Counted from the stretch's first letter, positions 38,411-49,290 are shown. The stretch: DNA of 64,000 bases from an uncultured bacterium (GCA_903873965.1 CAIQQO010000172.1:1-64000), one strand, 5' to 3'. Numbers and translations are program-made. The notes: a model not told the origin generated them from the sequence alone.

Positions 38411-39466
38411 TTATCTAGGTAATCTATCATTGCGACCTGGCATCTGGGGAAATGCTGCGTGCGGCTCCTGCTGGTACCAATAGCCTACAGACGCGAGTTC
38501 ATCCGTCAGAGGTTGGAACTTGCCATCCGGCCACCAGCCCAATGCCTGCATAGTCACTTTTAAGTCCTGGTGGAAGCGGATGGGATCCATGATATGCCAC
38601 CGATAAAGCCCATGCTTGGGGACACGTTCGCCTTCTTTTTGCCACAAAGGATATCCAGTGTAAGGGCCTGTAAATGTCTCGCCAAATCCCCATGCGCCGC
38701 AGAAATAATCCTCGGTGCCAGTGCCGCAGATCGTAGGGGCATCGGCATCGCCATCCATAAAGAACTTGATCTCACCCTCACCCCACCAACCATCCGACAT
38801 CTGTACCCACGCCAGGTATGTGCCGACATACTGCCCATTGCCTTGGAGACCATCGAGAATGACGTGTTCAGGATAATCACGTCGAGTTGTGCTGATACGC
38901 CACTGAGCGTGGAAAGTGCCGAGGTCGAGGGGCAACTGACCCAGAGCGTAAGTGATCTGGTAGAAGAAGCCAGTGATGGGTTCATGACACTGACTTTCGA
39001 TGGTGATGCGAGCTGACTTGTAAAACGGCATTGGCCAGTAACAATTGAAACCACCACTTGCGTTGACGGTTACGGCCAATGAGGCAATTTTGGTACGCAG
39101 GCCATGACCACATGCAAAAAAATCACCGAGTGGAACTTCAACAGAGGGCGTCGCTTCACCATCCCAGAATATCCGCAGGATGCAGTCGCGGTATGCCTTC
39201 GGTTCCACCGTGATCCAGATGTGCTGAATCATGCCCTGTCCGCCAATATCTGCCAGCGTCGTTATGGATCCTGGTTCCAGCGTGATACATGGGCGTACCT
39301 TCCAGCCTTTTCCCAGTTCTCGTGCCGGATCGCGTGGACCTTCTGGAGAAGCCAGTGCGCCACCTGCGCGCCGACCATCCGGATTCTCAGCGCTGATCGA
39401 GCGTGTCTCAAAGTCTCCTAGAACGGGCAATCCGCCCAGTCCAAACTGACCAATATTTTGTAGCAT
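38411..39466 (-). CDS. DUF2961/GH172-like protein
   Basis: A 351-residue beta-jelly-roll protein of the DUF2961 family, which includes GH172 difructose-dianhydride synthases and D-arabinofuranosidases. GMIQHIWITVEP, the tripartite strands and ICGTGTEDYFCGAWGF with its conserved Glu-Asp pair are seen, and the following GPYTGYPLW/GERVPKHGLYRWHIMDP block completes the site. No signal peptide is visible. The gene lies between an SDR and a small membrane protein. The substrate might be a furanoside (arabinose, apiose or fructose). Confidence 0.87.
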   Translation of the reverse strand: MLQNIGQFGLGGLPVLGDFETRSISAENPDGRRAGGALASPEGPRDPARELGKGWKVRPCITLEPGSITTLADIGGQGMIQHIWITVEPKAYRDCILRIFWDGEATPSVEVPLGDFFACGHGLRTKIASLAVTVNASGGFNCYWPMPFYKSARITIESQCHEPITGFFYQITYALGQLPLDLGTFHAQWRISTTRRDYPEHVILDGLQGNGQYVGTYLAWVQMSDGWWGEGEIKFFMDGDADAPTICGTGTEDYFCGAWGFGETFTGPYTGYPLWQKEGERVPKHGLYRWHIMDPIRFHQDLKVTMQALGWWPDGKFQPLTDELASVGYWYQQEPHAAFPQMPGRNDRLPR

Positions 39467-40503: not shown

Positions 40504-41748
40504 ATGAGTAGCACAATGATTCTCGATGATGATCGATTCCCGATTATGGGATGGGCTGGACCTTCCGGCGACATGATACGTCCCGATGTCATGCTTGGTA
40601 TGTCGGCAGCAGGATTTACAGTGAGTCATTCATGGGTAACTGGTGATGCTGCCGAGGTGATCAAAGCACTTGATATCGCGGCAGCGGCTAATATCAAGTT
40701 ATTGCTTGTTCACCCGCTCTGGCATGTTGGGGACGACTACAAGCTCGATGATGAGCGAAAAGCTCAAGTGCAGTCGATTATCGAAAGCATTCGCGAGCAT
40801 CCCGGACTGTATGGATATCATCTTCGCGACGAGCCGCGGTTCGAAATGCTGCCGTTGCTTGCGGAAATGTACGCGTTTGTGCAATCGCTCGATGCTTATC
40901 ATGCTATTTACATCAACCACTTCCCGCCGATCGAAGGCTGGGGAGCGCCGACGGCTGAGGCGTTTTGGCGTCGGTATATCGAAATCACTGCCCCACAGTT
41001 TCTCAGTTACGATCATTATGTTATAACAGTGGCAACAGCCGCGGAACTGAAGGCTCAAGAAGGAATGCCCAACGTCTTCCCTTCTGAAAAAATTATTGTC
41101 AAACCAGATTATTTTGATTGCCTTGAGCTGTTACGCAATCTGTCGCTTGCCCACAAAATACCATTTTGGGCATTCACATGCTCAGTGCGCCATGGGCCAT
41201 ACCCACCACCCACCGAAGGACACATACGCTTCCAGTTGATGAACAATATAGCCTATGGTGCACTTGGCCTGCAATACTTCACCTACGCACACGACTCGGC
41301 TATGGTGCGTCCAGACGGCAGCACAACGGCGACATGGGAGATCGCACGGCGCGTCAACGCTGACATACACAAACTAGGCCCTGTGCTGCGAAAATTACAC
41401 AATATTGGCACATTCCGGACTGGCCCTTTGTGGAGTGGTACCCGACACTTGCACCGCAGCCACTTGGCTGCACTGGTTCAGTGCGAAGGTGATCCAGTAA
41501 CCATCGGCTTCTTTCAAGATGCCGAAGATAGGCTTTATCTCATGGTGGTCAATGGTGATCCAACTGCGTGGTCGCGCATCACTCTGAAAGTAAACGTAAG
41601 TAAAGACAAGCTGTACTTCTTCGATTATGGTGATGCAGTCTTCCGTGAGCTTTGGCCACCAGATGCACATAACCAGATGGTTGCCCTTGCCCCGGGAGAA
41701 GGTCGGCTATTTAAGGTGGGCGGTGAAGGTCAAGGACAGAACTTTTAA
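40504..41748 (+). CDS. TIM-barrel glycoside-hydrolase-like protein (GH42/GH5-related)
   Basis: About 414 residues. After a short N-terminal lead, a barrel-like region has FPIMGWAGPSGDM, YGYHLRDEPRFEMLPLL (a DE/EP pair like the clan-A acid/base) and YINHFPPIEGWG. The latter half contains PFWAFTCSVRHGPY, an aromatic cluster like the sugar platform, and a small C-terminal beta domain. I start at ATG 40504: AGGAG precedes it at five bases. The family is unconfirmed; a beta-galactosidase-like hydrolase is my best guess. Confidence 0.65.
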   Translation: MSSTMILDDDRFPIMGWAGPSGDMIRPDVMLGMSAAGFTVSHSWVTGDAAEVIKALDIAAAANIKLLLVHPLWHVGDDYKLDDERKAQVQSIIESIREHPGLYGYHLRDEPRFEMLPLLAEMYAFVQSLDAYHAIYINHFPPIEGWGAPTAEAFWRRYIEITAPQFLSYDHYVITVATAAELKAQEGMPNVFPSEKIIVKPDYFDCLELLRNLSLAHKIPFWAFTCSVRHGPYPPPTEGHIRFQLMNNIAYGALGLQYFTYAHDSAMVRPDGSTTATWEIARRVNADIHKLGPVLRKLHNIGTFRTGPLWSGTRHLHRSHLAALVQCEGDPVTIGFFQDAEDRLYLMVVNGDPTAWSRITLKVNVSKDKLYFFDYGDAVFRELWPPDAHNQMVALAPGEGRLFKVGGEGQGQNF

Positions 41749-41811
41749 CGCAGACTATCGCAGTTATCACAAACATACTGTGAAAAAAAGCGGCATATTT
41801 GCGATATTTTG

Positions 41812-41844
41812 GAGCGCTGAGCGTAAGTTCAGCGCTCTTCTTTT
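41812..41844 (+). terminator. Intrinsic terminator after the TIM-barrel gene
   Basis: GAGCGCTGA (41812-41820) and TCAGCGCTC (41829-41837) form a 9-bp perfect stem with an 8-base loop, followed by TTCTTTT. It insulates the ATP-grasp operon from upstream transcription. Confidence 0.88.
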
Positions 41845-41890: not shown

Positions 41891-41918
41891 TTGACAATAA
41901 CAGGGCATACCATAAAAT
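41891..41918 (+). promoter_or_regulatory. Sigma70 promoter of the ATP-grasp operon
   Basis: TTGACA (41891-41896) and TAAAAT (41913-41918) with a 16-base spacer. It lies 64 bases upstream of the first ATP-grasp start and just after the preceding terminator. Confidence 0.75.
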
Positions 41919-41981
41919 CGAAAGCGGATAAAAACTTCTGAAACAGCCCTCGAATGAGCTATGGGAGTGTAAGCGTTAGTC

Positions 41982-43127
41982 ATGTCTGGGATTACGACAA
42001 AGAGCATCATCACAACGAATTCGCACGCCTCGGAGGAATCCACTGGGCAATCGTTGTCGTCAGAAATAGAGGAGCCTCCGCTGAACTGGCCCGGAGATGG
42101 TACCAGGCTGCATATTGCACTTCTGGTCAACCTTGCCCGCCATGCCCCACCCGTTCATAGCAACGCCCCGTCTGATATTCTGGCAGAACTCGATCAGGAC
42201 AACAATGTTAATTCCTATGCCAATGCTATGCGTGCGCGCGGTCATGAAGTGCTCATTTGCGAAGGCAACGCGCATTTGGCGGCTTGGCTAGAACAGGTAA
42301 AGCCTGATATCTGCTTCAATACCTGTGAAGGATTTGGCGGCGATAGCCGTGAAGCACAAGTCCCGGCCATGCTGGAAATGCTTGGAATTCCGTATACCGG
42401 ACCCACGCCCCTGGCTGCAGCTATCACACACGACAAACCGACAACTCAACGCATTCTGGCTTCATACGGTTTACCCGTACCGCACTACCAGGTATTTAAT
42501 GCATCCGATCTGGTTATGCAACCCTTTAGTGAGGTTTTGCGCCCGCACATGGTATACCCGCTCTTTGTCAAGCCGGCGCATGAGGGCACTGGAATCGGAA
42601 TCCATAATGACAGCATTGCCCGGAATGAGGCTCAGTTGCGCAGCAAAGTGGCACAGATCATTGAGGATTACCGGCAGCCTGCGATGGTTGAGATGTACAT
42701 CGAGGGCAAAGATATTACCTGCGGATTAACTGGCAATGGTCTTGATGTTCACTTCTATCCCATCACCGAGGTCGATTTCTCAGGATATCCAACTGAACTG
42801 GAGCCCATCTATGGAGTTGAGCAAAAGGTTGACTTTGACACCTATTACCGCAACAAGTGCCCAGCACCGCTCAGTGATGCCCTTTTTAATGAGATTCGCC
42901 GACTGACGCATGAGGTCTTTCTGGTAACCGGTTGCCGTGACTTTGCGCGTGTCGATTTCCGAGTAACGGATCAGGGCCAACCGTACATACTTGAGATAAA
43001 CGGACTGCCGGGAATCACGCCCAATAGTGATTTGACCTTGATGGCACAGGCAGAAAACCTGACGCATGCCGATCTTGTCTGCAACGTACTCGATGCCGCT
43101 TTGAAAAGGTACGGGATCAAGAAATAA
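41982..43127 (+). CDS. ATP-grasp carboxylate-amine ligase 1 (D-Ala-D-Ala ligase-like)
   Basis: A 381-residue ATP-grasp enzyme. After an unusual Ser/Thr-rich 42-residue lead, the N-lobe shows FNTCEG (~112-117) and GIPYTG (~135-140). The ATP loop is KPAHEGTGIGI (~197-207), EMYIEGKDITC follows, and metal ligands are in CRDFARVDFR (~318-327) and ILEINGLPGITPNSD (~336-350). Family members form an amide from a carboxylate and an amine via acyl phosphate. The loop is nearer the Ddl canon than in the other two operon ligases. No RBS is clear before the ATG; GGGAG lies 15 bases away. Its substrates are unknown. Confidence 0.9.
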   Translation: MSGITTKSIITTNSHASEESTGQSLSSEIEEPPLNWPGDGTRLHIALLVNLARHAPPVHSNAPSDILAELDQDNNVNSYANAMRARGHEVLICEGNAHLAAWLEQVKPDICFNTCEGFGGDSREAQVPAMLEMLGIPYTGPTPLAAAITHDKPTTQRILASYGLPVPHYQVFNASDLVMQPFSEVLRPHMVYPLFVKPAHEGTGIGIHNDSIARNEAQLRSKVAQIIEDYRQPAMVEMYIEGKDITCGLTGNGLDVHFYPITEVDFSGYPTELEPIYGVEQKVDFDTYYRNKCPAPLSDALFNEIRRLTHEVFLVTGCRDFARVDFRVTDQGQPYILEINGLPGITPNSDLTLMAQAENLTHADLVCNVLDAALKRYGIKK

Positions 43128-43138
43128 GGATTTCGTTC

Positions 43139-44224
43139 ATGAACAAGCCACCTGTACTGCTACTCTACGGACTGGATGAAGCAAGTCAACCTTACGAGGT
43201 TGAGGCGACTAATCTCCTCATTGAGGTTGTTGAAAATAGCCTTGCTTCGCGCAACTGGCGTGTCGACACGGTACGACTGGTTCATGATCTCGTTTCGCCT
43301 CTGCGTGGGTATGATCCGCATGAGTGGATCGTATTGAATCTATGTGAAGGCGGACCGGCTCAAGACTTCTATTATGCCCGTGTTGCCCTGTTGCTTGACT
43401 CACTCGGTTTCACCTACACGGGCTCTGATTGCCGAACACTGGATCAAACGCAGTTTAAGGCACAAATGAAGCAATTGCTGGCCGACAAGGCCGTGCCAAC
43501 GCCCGCATGGGCCATTTACGAGGACGCTGCAGACATTGACTTTGGCATCTATCCGGCAATCGTTAAACCCGCATCTGAGCATTGCTCACTTGGCATTACA
43601 CGCAAGTCTGTGGTAATGAATCTAGATGAAGCCCGCAAGCAAGTGGCTGCGCTTCGGCGCGAATTCAACGGTCCCGCCTTGCTGGAGGAATTCCTTGACA
43701 GCGCTGAATACAACGTGTCTGTTTGGGGAAGTGACGCAATACATTCCGACCATGGCATATCGGTACTCGGCATTTCGACGATGACCTATGATGCTTTCCC
43801 GGATATACACGATCGGTTATGCACGTTCGAGGCAAAGTGGGATCCTGCATCTGCGGCCTATCAACGCATCCCGGCCATATGTCCGGCGCCGGTGTCGGCA
43901 GAATTGAAGGTACAAATCGAACGTACCGCCATAGCGGCATATCTTGCAACCGGTTGCCGCGACTATGGACGCGTAGACTTACGTTTGCGCGGGACACAGC
44001 CCATGGTGCTCGATGTCAATTCGAACTGCGACGTCAGCCCAGGAAGCGGCTTCGCCAATGCAGCCACGGCTTCAGGCCTGGAGTACGCCGATATGCTGGA
44101 GCGGATTGTACAGTTCGCCATACAACGCCGCGAACGTGTAGAAGTACGCACTACAAATGATCATGCGCAACGCAAACAAGAACAGCGTTTCCATGTGCCA
44201 TCGCCTGCACCAGCCGGAGCATAA
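43139..44224 (+). CDS. ATP-grasp carboxylate-amine ligase 2
   Basis: A 361-residue ATP-grasp ligase. LNLCEG (~66-71) and FTYTGSD belong to the N-lobe; the ATP loop reads KPASEHCSLGI (~143-153), different from the Gly-rich canonical one. LEEFLDSAEYNVSVWG, CRDYGRVDLR (~273-282) and VLDVNSNCDVSPGSG (~290-304) carry the metal-site Asp and Asn. The 40-residue C-terminus is charged and repeat-poor. It starts 11 bases after ligase 1 and shares the HCS loop with ligase 3, so these two are closer paralogues. The amide bond made and its substrates are unknown. Confidence 0.9.
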   Translation: MNKPPVLLLYGLDEASQPYEVEATNLLIEVVENSLASRNWRVDTVRLVHDLVSPLRGYDPHEWIVLNLCEGGPAQDFYYARVALLLDSLGFTYTGSDCRTLDQTQFKAQMKQLLADKAVPTPAWAIYEDAADIDFGIYPAIVKPASEHCSLGITRKSVVMNLDEARKQVAALRREFNGPALLEEFLDSAEYNVSVWGSDAIHSDHGISVLGISTMTYDAFPDIHDRLCTFEAKWDPASAAYQRIPAICPAPVSAELKVQIERTAIAAYLATGCRDYGRVDLRLRGTQPMVLDVNSNCDVSPGSGFANAATASGLEYADMLERIVQFAIQRRERVEVRTTNDHAQRKQEQRFHVPSPAPAGA

Positions 44225-44226
44225 GC

Positions 44227-44763
44227 GTGCAAGAGACACTTCCCGTGCCCGCAGAGACAGCAATTCCAAATTCACACACTTTGTGCATTGTGCCAAGTAG
44301 TTGGGCAGACCGGCAGGATATCTACAACATACTCATGCATTCCGGGATTTTCAATCAGTCGGATGCTGACTGCGTTGATGGGATGTTTGGTGAAGCATTC
44401 AATAAGGTTAGCGATGATAACTATCGCTTCATTTCGTGCCGTGAGGGTGACCATCTACTTGGTTTTGCATGTTTTGGACGTGAATCACTGACACATGGCA
44501 CATGGGATTTGTTCTGGGTCTGCGTAGCCGCCGATGCAAGGCGGAAAGGCGCTGGACGCGCCTTATTGGCCGAAGTTCAGCGTCAGGCTGCCCATAAGTC
44601 GGTGCGTCTGATCGTGATTTATACGTCTTCGACGGATCGCTATGCGCCTGCGCGAAACCTGTACGAGTCGATGGGTTTCATATGCACAGCCAAGGTTCCT
44701 GATTATTACGCCGAGAAAGATCATCTTTTGATCTATACACAACGAATTGCGAGGAAGGAGTAA
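44227..44763 (+). CDS. GNAT acetyltransferase within the ATP-grasp operon
   Basis: A 178-residue GNAT inserted between ligases 2 and 3. The core strand WDLFWVCVAADARRKGAGRALL contains the acetyl-CoA pyrophosphate loop RRKGAG, and ARNLYESMGFICTAKVPDYY is the usual C-terminal block. A GTG at 44227 is the start and follows the ligase 2 stop by two bases. It probably acylates an amine of the ligation product or of a building block. Its C-terminal codons abut the ligase 3 RBS. Confidence 0.88.
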   Translation: MQETLPVPAETAIPNSHTLCIVPSSWADRQDIYNILMHSGIFNQSDADCVDGMFGEAFNKVSDDNYRFISCREGDHLLGFACFGRESLTHGTWDLFWVCVAADARRKGAGRALLAEVQRQAAHKSVRLIVIYTSSTDRYAPARNLYESMGFICTAKVPDYYAEKDHLLIYTQRIARKE

Positions 44764-44766
44764 TTG

Positions 44767-45843
44767 ATGCAAGTATTAAAGAATCGTCATAGAGCACCCA
44801 TATTGCTGCTCTATAACTATTACAAATCATGGACGCCGGGCGAAATTGAAGATGGCAAGAAGCACACCGCTTTTATGGTTAACGGCCTCGAATCACTGGG
44901 GTATACCGTTCGCGTAGTTGACTTCTGGAAGGATGTTCGCCCTGCACTTCATGGTTTCGATCCAACACAATGGATCGTCTTTAACTGGTGCGAAGGCATT
45001 GAAGGCGAAGTCGGCGGCGATGCACGCATCTGCCGTGACCTTGACCAAATGGGCTTCACCTATACTGGCAACTCGCCGACAACATTACGGTTGTCAGTTG
45101 AAAAAGGTCGCGCCAAGAAAGTGCTTGAACGTTGGAGCATACCGACGCCTGCCGGACGTGAATTCAACGCCGCATCCGAACTTACAACGTGGGATAAATT
45201 CCCCGCGATCGTAAAACCTGTCAGCCAGCATTGCTCAATGGGTGTTACGCGCGACGCTGTTGTGCATAACATCGACGCACTGCGAGCACGCATCGCGTAC
45301 ATCGTGGATACATTCCACGAAGCGGCTCTGGTCGAACAGTTTGTTGCGGGACGCGAGATCAATGTCGGTGTGTGGGGCAATGGACGCCCACGCGTATTGC
45401 CGTTGCGCGAGATTGATTTCTCCATGATTGAAAATCCAATGCATCAACTCGTGACGTGGGATAGCAAATGGTCTCCTGAAAGCGTCGAATGGCACTCCAT
45501 GCCCGTGATCACAGAAGTAAAGACATCAGCCATGATGCGATCGAAGATCGAAGATATTGTCCTGCGCACCTACCGCGTGTTTGAGTGTCGTGACTATGCT
45601 CGCGTCGATCTGCGCATCGATGCCAACGAGCAACCCTACGTCGTTGATGTTAATCCCAATCCCGATATCACTTTCGATGGCGGGTTTATGGGCGCATGCA
45701 AAGCTGCAGGATACGCGTACGGTGAAGCAGTCAGCAACATCGTGCAGATGGCTGTCACGCGCCGCAACCGCCGCCAAGCCTTGTTCAACACACTGCAGCA
45801 ACGCCGACAATTGAGCATGGCACTATCTGCTCAACAAGCGTAG
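44767..45843 (+). CDS. ATP-grasp carboxylate-amine ligase 3
   Basis: A 358-residue ATP-grasp ligase. FNWCEG (~72-77), FTYTGNS and the ATP loop KPVSQHCSMGV (~150-160) are followed by EQFVAGREINVGVWG. Metal ligands are in CRDYARVDLR (~274-283) and VVDVNPNPDITFDGGF (~292-307). AAGGAG six bases before ATG 44767 defines the start (an in-frame TTG one codon earlier is not needed). The C-terminus (residues 330-358) is a basic, Gln-rich helix. It is the last gene before the terminator at 45874. Compared with ligase 2 the two ends differ most, suggesting different substrates. Confidence 0.9.
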   Translation: MQVLKNRHRAPILLLYNYYKSWTPGEIEDGKKHTAFMVNGLESLGYTVRVVDFWKDVRPALHGFDPTQWIVFNWCEGIEGEVGGDARICRDLDQMGFTYTGNSPTTLRLSVEKGRAKKVLERWSIPTPAGREFNAASELTTWDKFPAIVKPVSQHCSMGVTRDAVVHNIDALRARIAYIVDTFHEAALVEQFVAGREINVGVWGNGRPRVLPLREIDFSMIENPMHQLVTWDSKWSPESVEWHSMPVITEVKTSAMMRSKIEDIVLRTYRVFECRDYARVDLRIDANEQPYVVDVNPNPDITFDGGFMGACKAAGYAYGEAVSNIVQMAVTRRNRRQALFNTLQQRRQLSMALSAQQA

Positions 45844-45873
45844 CTGTTTCGATTCTTTCCTCGCACACTATGA

Positions 45874-45902
45874 CGCCAGTTCACCTGGCGCCATTTCTTT
45901 TT
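45874..45902 (+). terminator. Intrinsic terminator of the ATP-grasp operon
   Basis: CGCCAG/CTGGCG (45874-45879, 45885-45890) with a TTCAC loop, followed after CCA by TTTCTTTTT. It lies between ligase 3 and the convergent Lrp gene. Confidence 0.85.
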
Positions 45903-45924: not shown

Positions 45925-46437
45925 TTATTCCGAGCTTTTTGCCGGTGGATCGAGTGGTTCTGTCGGACCATGCTCAATGGTTCTTCTCGTTACTGCCGAT
46001 GACAGAACGAGTGTCGTTGTAGTTTCTCCAAAAGGCTGTAACTGATCAATCAGTGCTTCAAGGTGCTGTATGGATGGCACCATGACCTTGACGTAGAAAG
46101 AGTCACTGCCAGTAATGCGGTGGCACTCGATCACTTCATGCATGCGCTTCACTGAAGTGGCGCATTTCGAGAAGTTAATGCCTGTCGCAGCGATACGAAT
46201 AATTGCAAGCACTCCGTATCCGACTTTGGCCGGATCGATGCTTGCATGGTAACCCGAGATAACCCCGGATTCTTCAAGTTTGCGAATGCGCTCTGCAACC
46301 GCAGGAGCCGACAGTCCAACTAAGCGCCCGAGTTCACTAAATGAAATCCGAGCGTTCTCCTGGAGTGCGCGCAGGATTTGCCAGCCCGTCGCGTCGAGAC
46401 CATTTGTGGATTCAATAGTGAAAGGCATGTTTTCCAT
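45925..46437 (-). CDS. Lrp/AsnC family transcriptional regulator
   Basis: A 170-residue Lrp/AsnC protein. LDATGWQILRALQENARISF and LVGLSAPAVAERIRKLEESG form the HTH, with GVISGYHASIDPAKVGYG linking to the RAM ligand domain (HRITGSDSFYVKVMVPSIQHLE). Lrp-type regulators sense amino acids and are often next to the genes they control. The convergent ATP-grasp operon is thus a candidate target. A TATAAT-like box overlaps the first ATG at 46437, so the ATG three codons later (46428, preceded by GGAAAA) may be the true start. CCTT repeats at 46458-46478 could be its binding site. Confidence 0.9.
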   Translation of the reverse strand: MENMPFTIESTNGLDATGWQILRALQENARISFSELGRLVGLSAPAVAERIRKLEESGVISGYHASIDPAKVGYGVLAIIRIAATGINFSKCATSVKRMHEVIECHRITGSDSFYVKVMVPSIQHLEALIDQLQPFGETTTTLVLSSAVTRRTIEHGPTEPLDPPAKSSE

Positions 46438-47568: not shown

Positions 47569-49290
47569 TTACCACCCTAAAACAAAGCGCTCAATTGCCA
47601 CAGCGGCTCCGTCCAGATCGATTGATGGTGCAATCCAATGTGCTGCCGCCCTAGTTGCAGGGCTGCCATTTCCCATCGCAACACCTACCCCAGCCCATGC
47701 CACCATCGTGGTGTCATTGTCTTGATCGCCAATCGCCATCACCGATTCGCGTGCGATCCGCAGGTCGGAAGCCAATCGAGCCAGTCCTGCGCCCTTATGC
47801 GCCAACAGTGGATTAACTTCGACAAATAGTCGATGAGACTGAACCACGGTACCATTGTCACCTGCGATTTGCGCCATTTCTGTCCGCGCTAAGGGTGCGT
47901 CTTCGGCAGGGACAATGACCAGGACTTTGTCTGGGTCACGCTGCGCAAGTGCTGCGCAAAGATCGCTGTTAACGCTCAAGTTCTCGCCAAGTAAAGACAG
48001 GTAGAACGCAGGTTCATACCGAAGAGATGACACTACCATGCCATCACCGACAAAAAGTGCGACTTGCCATGCTGGAAAGCGATTCTCGAGTTCGACCAGT
48101 GCACAACCGAGTTCGCTCGAAATAGTAAGTTCATGCAGTACCTGTTCGGTCGCGAAATCATATATCATCCCACCCTGCATAGCGAGTACAGGTGCATTGA
48201 CGCCAATCGCATTGACAAATGGACGAATGACGGGCACTGGGCGACCACTGGCAATCGTAACCCGCACACCCCTCTCTACAGCGGCAGCAAGCGCACCTTT
48301 CACCCGTTCCGAAATCCGAAACTGGTCATCCAGCGTTGTCCCATCTAGGTCTACTGCGATCAACTTGATCTCGGGTTTACGTACAATCAGCACCCGATCC
48401 AATCCAGCCAGGTCTTTGAGCAACTCAACTGACCAGCCCGGAAGTGCTTCGCGCGCAAACGCAACGGCCGATTGCCCCTGGGCAGCGCCAAATTCAAACA
48501 ACGCGATACCGCCTGGAAGCAGATGCGCATCAAGTTGGCGTAACAGGCGGCGAACAAGCCCAAGTCCGTCTGCCCCCCCATCCAAGGCAACACGCGGCTC
48601 GTGTTCTTGTATTTCTGATGGTAATGCCTCTATTTCTTCGGTTGTTACGTAAGGTAGGTTAGCCGTTATTACACGTGAGTGCACTGCAATATCCGCCAGA
48701 AGGTCGCTGACCACAAAGCAGATGCGATCAACAGTTTCGGTGCGTTGCGCATTTATCAGCGCAACATCAAGTGCATCACGAGAAACATCACTGGCGACAA
48801 TCCGCGCTGCGGGTACATGTCGACTGATGGCAATGGCGACCGCACCACTGCCCGTCCCGACATCGATGACGTCGACCACGTCATCTCCTGAATCGGCCAG
48901 ATGGGCGGGTTTGAGATATGTCAGAGGACGCTGCCCTTTATGATTATCTGACCATGAACGCAAGTGGCTAATCGCTAACTCCACCAGCATTTCAGTTTCA
49001 GGACGTGGGATTAAAACACGCGGATCGACAGCCAAGTCAATACCATAAAACTCGCGGTGACCCAGAATGTAGGCCAGAGGTTCATGCGCAAGCACTTGCT
49101 CAATCAGCCCATGCACACGAAGTAACGCCTGTTCGTCGAGAATAACGTCATCGTGCGCCACAAGCCACTCGCGTGTTTTCTCTAGGCCGTGAGCGACCAC
49201 AACCCGCGCAGTCAGGGCAGGGCTATCGATATGGGCAATATGAAACTTCGCAATGGTATCGCGAAGCACTGTGCGAAGAGAGATGGTCAA
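47569..49290 (-). CDS. prmC: PrmC (release-factor glutamine methyltransferase) fused to a Cof-like HAD phosphatase
   Basis: A 573-residue fusion. Residues ~1-305 are PrmC/HemK: an N-terminal helical domain, SAM motif VIDVGTGSGAVAIAI and NLPYV (~211-215, where NPPY is canonical). It methylates the GGQ glutamine of release factors. Residues ~308-573 form a Cof/HAD IIB phosphatase: VDLDGTTLDD (~D314/D316), VTIASGRP, HKGAGLARLA and AIGDQDNDTTM. Its ATG overlaps the prfA TGA by four bases, so RF1 and its methylase are coupled. The HAD partner is not a usual PrmC appendage; the junction shows no stop or start. Confidence 0.92.
   Translation of the reverse strand: MTISLRTVLRDTIAKFHIAHIDSPALTARVVVAHGLEKTREWLVAHDDVILDEQALLRVHGLIEQVLAHEPLAYILGHREFYGIDLAVDPRVLIPRPETEMLVELAISHLRSWSDNHKGQRPLTYLKPAHLADSGDDVVDVIDVGTGSGAVAIAISRHVPAARIVASDVSRDALDVALINAQRTETVDRICFVVSDLLADIAVHSRVITANLPYVTTEEIEALPSEIQEHEPRVALDGGADGLGLVRRLLRQLDAHLLPGGIALFEFGAAQGQSAVAFAREALPGWSVELLKDLAGLDRVLIVRKPEIKLIAVDLDGTTLDDQFRISERVKGALAAAVERGVRVTIASGRPVPVIRPFVNAIGVNAPVLAMQGGMIYDFATEQVLHELTISSELGCALVELENRFPAWQVALFVGDGMVVSSLRYEPAFYLSLLGENLSVNSDLCAALAQRDPDKVLVIVPAEDAPLARTEMAQIAGDNGTVVQSHRLFVEVNPLLAHKGAGLARLASDLRIARESVMAIGDQDNDTTMVAWAGVGVAMGNGSPATRAAAHWIAPSIDLDGAAVAIERFVLGW

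Follow-up and report, generated by a model that had tools for sequence, protein, structure and literature searches.

A conserved block of ATP-grasp ligases and a GNAT acetyltransferase is linked in relatives to lysine 2,3-aminomutase and may make an acetylated beta-lysine metabolite

Results

Gene layout and flanking signals of the block

The window analyzed here, a 64,000-nucleotide stretch of DNA from an uncultured bacterium, carries at positions 41982-45843 a block of four genes in the order ligase 1, ligase 2, GNAT and ligase 3, all on the plus strand and separated by gaps of 11, 2 and 3 bases, which bears out the four-gene, one-direction run described in the initial annotation. Ligase 1 (41982-43127; 381 aa), the partner of KamA in relatives, is an ATP-grasp enzyme of the Ddl fold that scored 122.7 bits against PF07478. 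Ligase 2 (43139-44224; 361 aa; 67.7 bits) and ligase 3 (44767-45843, with an alternative TTG start at 44764; 358 aa; 96.1 bits) are ATP-grasp paralogues with 37% identity, and a quick tree suggests that they arose by duplication of a single ancestral second ligase. All three ligases passed the Pfam Dala_Dala_lig_C cut-off of 24 bits. The GNAT acetyltransferase (44227-44763; 178 aa) starts with GTG, contains the acetyl-CoA motif RRKGAG and, at 50 bits against PF00583, passed the Pfam Acetyltransf_1 cut-off.

Terminator-like stems flank the block, as had been claimed: 12 pairs followed by a TCTTTT tail upstream (41811-41838, +) and 6 pairs downstream (45874-45890, +). The reported sigma-70-like promoter, TTGACA-N16-TAAAAT, is present at 41891-41918 (+) and departs from the consensus at one base (11 of 12 match). 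However, sites resembling promoters were no commoner here than in shuffled sequence (5 observed versus 5.8 expected by chance), so the motif, taken alone, is weak evidence. Riboswitch control was rejected, since Rfam gave no match close to either the block or the aminomutase gene when the window and nine loci were scanned.

A gene for an Lrp/AsnC regulator with AsnC domains (45925-46437, −) converges on the block. Directly upstream of the block, the window encodes a 409-aa protein (40519-41745, +) that had no Pfam or NCBIfam match and is 69-90% identical in L075, L076 and L085. Farther out lie a 351-aa protein (38411-39466, −), DUF2961/GH172-like by eye and ~80% identical in L085 and L086, and a single ORF (47569-49290, −) that by eye fuses PrmC to a HAD-type hydrolase, the two being separate abutting ORFs in relatives such as L076 and L094.

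The block ligases differ from the cell-wall Ddl of the same genome

The genome containing the window (5.19 Mb, 497 contigs, 75% complete) encodes four proteins with the Ddl C-terminal domain, namely the three block ligases and one strong fourth match (219 bits). Its own Ddl gene resides on contig C347 in the run murC, murB, ddl, ftsQ, ftsA, ftsZ (named by reading translations), and no mur or fts genes lie beside the block. The initial annotation had left room for the ligases being ordinary Ddl enzymes; none of them reached the NCBIfam Ddl cut-offs, their best scores being 162.8, 84.0 and 111.5 bits against 243. In E. coli DdlB the acceptor D-alanine is bound by a loop with Ser281-Leu282; the corresponding site is Ser-Asp in ligase 1, and its Ser is gone in ligases 2 and 3. 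The GEDG motif of Ddl is replaced in the block ligases, ligases 2 and 3 carry D-x-N in place of Ddl's E-x-N, and ligase 3 has D-x-N-x-N-x-D at the position of Ddl's E-x-N-x-x-x-G. Taken together, the low scores, the altered acceptor site and GEDG motif, and the presence of a real Ddl among mur/fts genes led us to reject a cell-wall Ddl role, which supports the earlier claim that the layout is not that of cell-wall synthesis.

The Lys, Arg, Asp and Asn residues that bind ATP and Mg are invariant in the block ligases. AlphaFold models of ligases 1 and 3 (mean pLDDT 83.9 and 94.1) both had Ddl as their best structural match, with a Foldseek probability of 1.00; residues 1-36 of ligase 1 were modeled with low confidence and are not conserved. 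Judged by predicted fold and by these nucleotide-binding residues, the block enzymes would qualify as ATP-grasp carboxylate-amine ligases. A quick tree set ligase 1 apart from ligases 2 and 3, with both groups far from the genome's Ddl, the position of which is unsure given its long branch.

Conservation of the gene order

The family of the window was placed in the Anaerolineae (Candidatus Roseilinea, Thermoflexales). An orthologue of ligase 2 (at least 55% identity) was found in 25 of 28 family genomes, including that of the window. The remaining three are G308, in which a contig end cuts the block; G037, where ligase 1, the GNAT and ligase 3 are present but ligase 2 is missing; and G313, in which neither ligase 2 nor ligase 3 was found. 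A second, shorter copy of the block in G262 also lacks ligase 2. The order ligase 1-ligase 2-GNAT-ligase 3 was kept in nearly all uncut loci among the 25 loci mapped, contig ends cutting the others; the search of genomes for an ordered ligase-ligase-GNAT-ligase array, as proposed initially, returned a conserved arrangement, and its recurrence across the family exceeds what chance would produce. The genes surrounding the block vary from genus to genus, arguing that the block behaves as a unit.

The initial annotation also had the block controlled by amino-acid sensing through the Lrp gene, which the mapped loci do not support. That gene adjoins the block in L075, L076 and L094, all of one genus, is missing from L093 of the same genus, and was not seen beside the block in any other genus among the loci mapped. 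We therefore rejected it as a part of the system; the regulator is probably a neighbor.

A lysine 2,3-aminomutase gene adjoins ligase 1 in relatives

Beyond the family, the gene preceding ligase 1 encodes a radical-SAM lysine 2,3-aminomutase (KamA/AblA). When GTDB genomes were scanned with an alignment of ligase 1, 575 relatives came up, and among the best 80, kamA was located within ~400 bp of ligase 1 in 30 loci, some of them from Bathyarchaeota, Ignavibacteriales and Planctomycetota. Across all searches, the association extended to other Chloroflexota and to Deltaproteobacteria. Thermoflexus and near relatives (L041, L042, L113) have a five-gene operon of kamA, ligase 1, ligase, GNAT and ligase; other Chloroflexota classes show the order kamA, ligase 1, ligase 2, GNAT (L048, L049, L050, L052); and in L103, L105 and L106 the second ligase is an additional copy resembling ligase 1. 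Bathyarchaeota carry ligase 2 on the opposite strand, and in Planctomycetota kamA stands at the end of the cluster and not at its start. A second search, seeded with the GNAT and run across the phylum to which a Deltaproteobacterial locus belongs, revealed the acetyltransferase in 78 of 247 genomes; of the 20 loci fetched, 14 combined the GNAT with ligase 1 and a second ligase, and 9 of these 14 also had kamA. The kamA and ligase-1 ORFs share four bases in L105, L113, L125, L136 and L256, an overlap that is a usual sign of coupled translation.

Two Deltaproteobacterial clusters contain an extra gene. L255:7900-9732 (−), inside a kamA-ligase-ligase-GNAT cluster, encodes a 611-aa protein that by Pfam is a GNAT/histone-deacetylase-like fusion and not the AsnO-like amidotransferase considered for it, and L257:5282-7543 (+) is by homology its in-cluster counterpart; such a fusion would fit a reversible acetyl group. 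Other neighbors of kamA were not constant and were set aside (a thioredoxin-like lipoprotein in the family; a response regulator, a transporter and an isocitrate-dehydrogenase-like protein elsewhere).

Radical-SAM cysteines, the PLP lysine, and D293 and D330 of the solved clostridial enzyme 2A5H were kept wherever covered in an alignment of 39 aminomutases, nearly all of them cluster-linked and one a fragment. Because all these residues are retained, including the two aspartates that hold the lysine side chain in 2A5H, the cluster-linked enzymes look by sequence like lysine aminomutases.

Another reading is that the genes attach amino acids or beta-lysine to a larger molecule, which might be peptidoglycan, a lipid, a surface polymer or a protein; EpmB and EpmA modify elongation factor P in this way. 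EpmB is a distant relative of the aminomutases, and ATP-grasp ligases also make the amino-acid cross-links of cell walls (PMC2922099). However, the aminomutases match AblA best and far above EpmB (526.7 versus 259.4 bits for the L040 enzyme), and the block has no constant neighbor that encodes a carrier, a cell-wall enzyme or EF-P. Bathyarchaeota also have homologous pairs of kamA and ligase, and archaea are without murein, which counts further against tailoring; we consider it quite unlikely.

Ligase 1 co-occurs with AblA

Among 301 Chloroflexota genomes, 50 had ligase 1 and 104 had AblA, the latter being present in 49 of the 50 ligase-1 genomes compared to 55 of the 251 without ligase 1 (Fisher p = 7e-26, ignoring shared ancestry). 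Counted by family, the contrast was 14/15 versus 9/60 (p = 2e-8), with 75 families assumed from the highest family number listed and the ancestry effect only softened by this grouping. In 21 of the 50 ligase-1 genomes, kamA and ligase 1 were within ~400 bp of each other. AblA was also present in 9 of 9 genomes reached via other loci, several of them without a linked kamA.

Within the window's family, AblA was detected in 23 of 28 genomes and not found in five, one of which (G311) is 94% complete in ~20 contigs, and the aminomutase gene lies apart from the block. The window genome's sole AblA-like gene is on another contig (G000:C361:13352-14440); its product matches 2A5H over the full length, retains D293 and D330, and scored 513 bits, slightly below the curated cut-off of 525.4. 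The missing linkage, the five genomes without AblA and the sub-threshold score count against a beta-lysine pathway here, and AblA could serve another purpose in this family. Five genomes of the same class (G088, G128, G176, G184, G240) lack both ligase 1 and AblA, and one has AblA without ligase 1.

The unlinked aminomutase and the few genomes without AblA would be expected if the ligases used ordinary amino acids and shared only regulation or a niche with the aminomutase. Against such an indirect link stand the adjacency of kamA and ligase 1 in several phyla and in two arrangements, the overlap of their reading frames, and the joint absence of both genes from those five genomes, making it a very unlikely account.

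The GNAT and the AblA-AblB system

AblB (TIGR03827), the acetyltransferase that accompanies AblA in known beta-lysine systems, was found in none of the 28 family genomes, the control genomes being positive, and in 4 of 301 Chloroflexota genomes. Since AblB is absent from the family, the block's GNAT becomes the natural candidate for the acetylating partner. Three of the four AblB-bearing Chloroflexota genomes, which are small and single-contig (G007, G020, G048), carry ablA-ablB at one site and a second kamA beside ligase 1 elsewhere; the two systems are distinct, as these genomes have both at separate sites. The family of the block GNAT includes PDB 2R7H (E = 1.3e-49), its one solved member, deposited as a putative D-alanine N-acetyltransferase. 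We know of no experiment behind that assignment, the name being the depositor's. The GNAT is also weakly related to acetyltransferases of the aminoglycoside and streptothricin types.

Lone homologues of ligase 1, lacking an adjacent kamA, second ligase or GNAT, were observed in L124, L151, L127, L128 and other Anaerolineae loci, and in seven loci an MFS/ATG22-like transporter gene lies directly upstream of such a lone gene.

These transporters, and the GNAT's weak likeness to antibiotic acetyltransferases, are what an exported bioactive peptide (an antibiotic or signal) would lead one to expect, with the GNAT capping the product or protecting the producer; serial ATP-grasp ligases are typical of such pathways (PMC12568646, PMC4431377). 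The block nevertheless occurs in nearly every family genome and its relatives spread over several phyla, and genes for a transporter, a protease or resistance are not regular neighbors of the full block. We regard an exported peptide as unlikely, while giving it some weight.

Discussion

The gene content and its conserved order, together with the clustering of kamA, two ligases and a GNAT in relatives and the co-occurrence with AblA, lead us to view the block as a self-contained cassette for an N-acetylated, amide-linked small metabolite based on beta-lysine, a reading that we hold to be moderately probable. The pathway type is well supported; we infer the substrates, the order of steps, the product and its role. 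A stepwise small-peptide pathway capped by the GNAT, as suggested in the initial annotation, remains the best reading, and what that annotation missed, lying outside the window, was the link to lysine 2,3-aminomutase. This link is the new element here and names the likely building block.

ATP-grasp ligases work by way of an acyl-phosphate that is transferred to an amine. Where an operon encodes several of them, they often extend the product one residue after another, and a GNAT can serve as the capping enzyme (PMC4431377, PMC12568646). In the proposed scheme, lysine would be converted to beta-lysine by the lysine 2,3-aminomutase encoded away from the block. Ligase 1 would then use ATP to activate a carboxylate as the acyl-phosphate and join it to an amine, with beta-lysine acting as donor or acceptor. 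Ligases 2 and 3 might each add one more residue, and the GNAT would cap a free amine with acetyl, yielding an acetylated di- to tetrapeptide or conjugate of beta-lysine. With KamA as the source, a peptide of this kind is the simplest model, and the product would most likely be an intracellular compatible solute or reserve.

Several known systems share parts of this scheme. AblA-AblB makes the solute N-epsilon-acetyl-beta-lysine by means of a lysine 2,3-aminomutase and a GNAT (PMC1224877, PMC9337991), thus resembling the proposed pathway in both enzymes and in its acetylated beta-lysine product, but it has no ATP-grasp ligases and AblB belongs to another GNAT family. The NAGGN (N-acetylglutaminylglutamine amide) pathway of AsnO and Ngg likewise yields an operon-encoded acetylated dipeptide osmolyte, Ngg both N-acetylating and forming the peptide bond (PMC8070244); it differs in using an asparagine-synthase-like amidotransferase and no aminomutase, whereas here ligation and acetylation would fall to distinct proteins, two or three ligases and one GNAT. 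No AsnO-like asparagine synthase was detected in the block by Pfam or among the conserved neighbors searched, which were part of all neighbors. MysD of mycosporine synthesis is a reused Ddl homologue that follows another ATP-grasp enzyme and attaches an amino acid to a small molecule (PMC10614408), although with other partners and substrates and with neither a GNAT nor an aminomutase. Ddl and VanA-type ligases have the same fold and are the best structure and sequence matches of the block ligases, which however fall under every Ddl family cut-off and have an altered GEDG motif and acceptor loop.

Neither ATP-grasp peptide pathways nor beta-lysine solutes are new in themselves; their combination was not found in the literature searched. 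No paper describing the set of aminomutase, ATP-grasp ligases and acetyltransferase was found there, the search having left out a 2009 review of amidoligases (10.1039/b917682a) that may mention such neighborhoods, and the literature pairing an aminomutase with ATP-grasp enzymes appears, in the parts consulted, unrelated to such a pathway. If the proposed reading is true, many annotated D-alanine--D-alanine ligases and orphan GNATs would belong to one pathway with predictable chemistry, spanning uncultured Chloroflexota, Deltaproteobacteria, Planctomycetota and archaea, and the pathway would combine beta-lysine with acetylated dipeptides, each already known as an osmolyte strategy.
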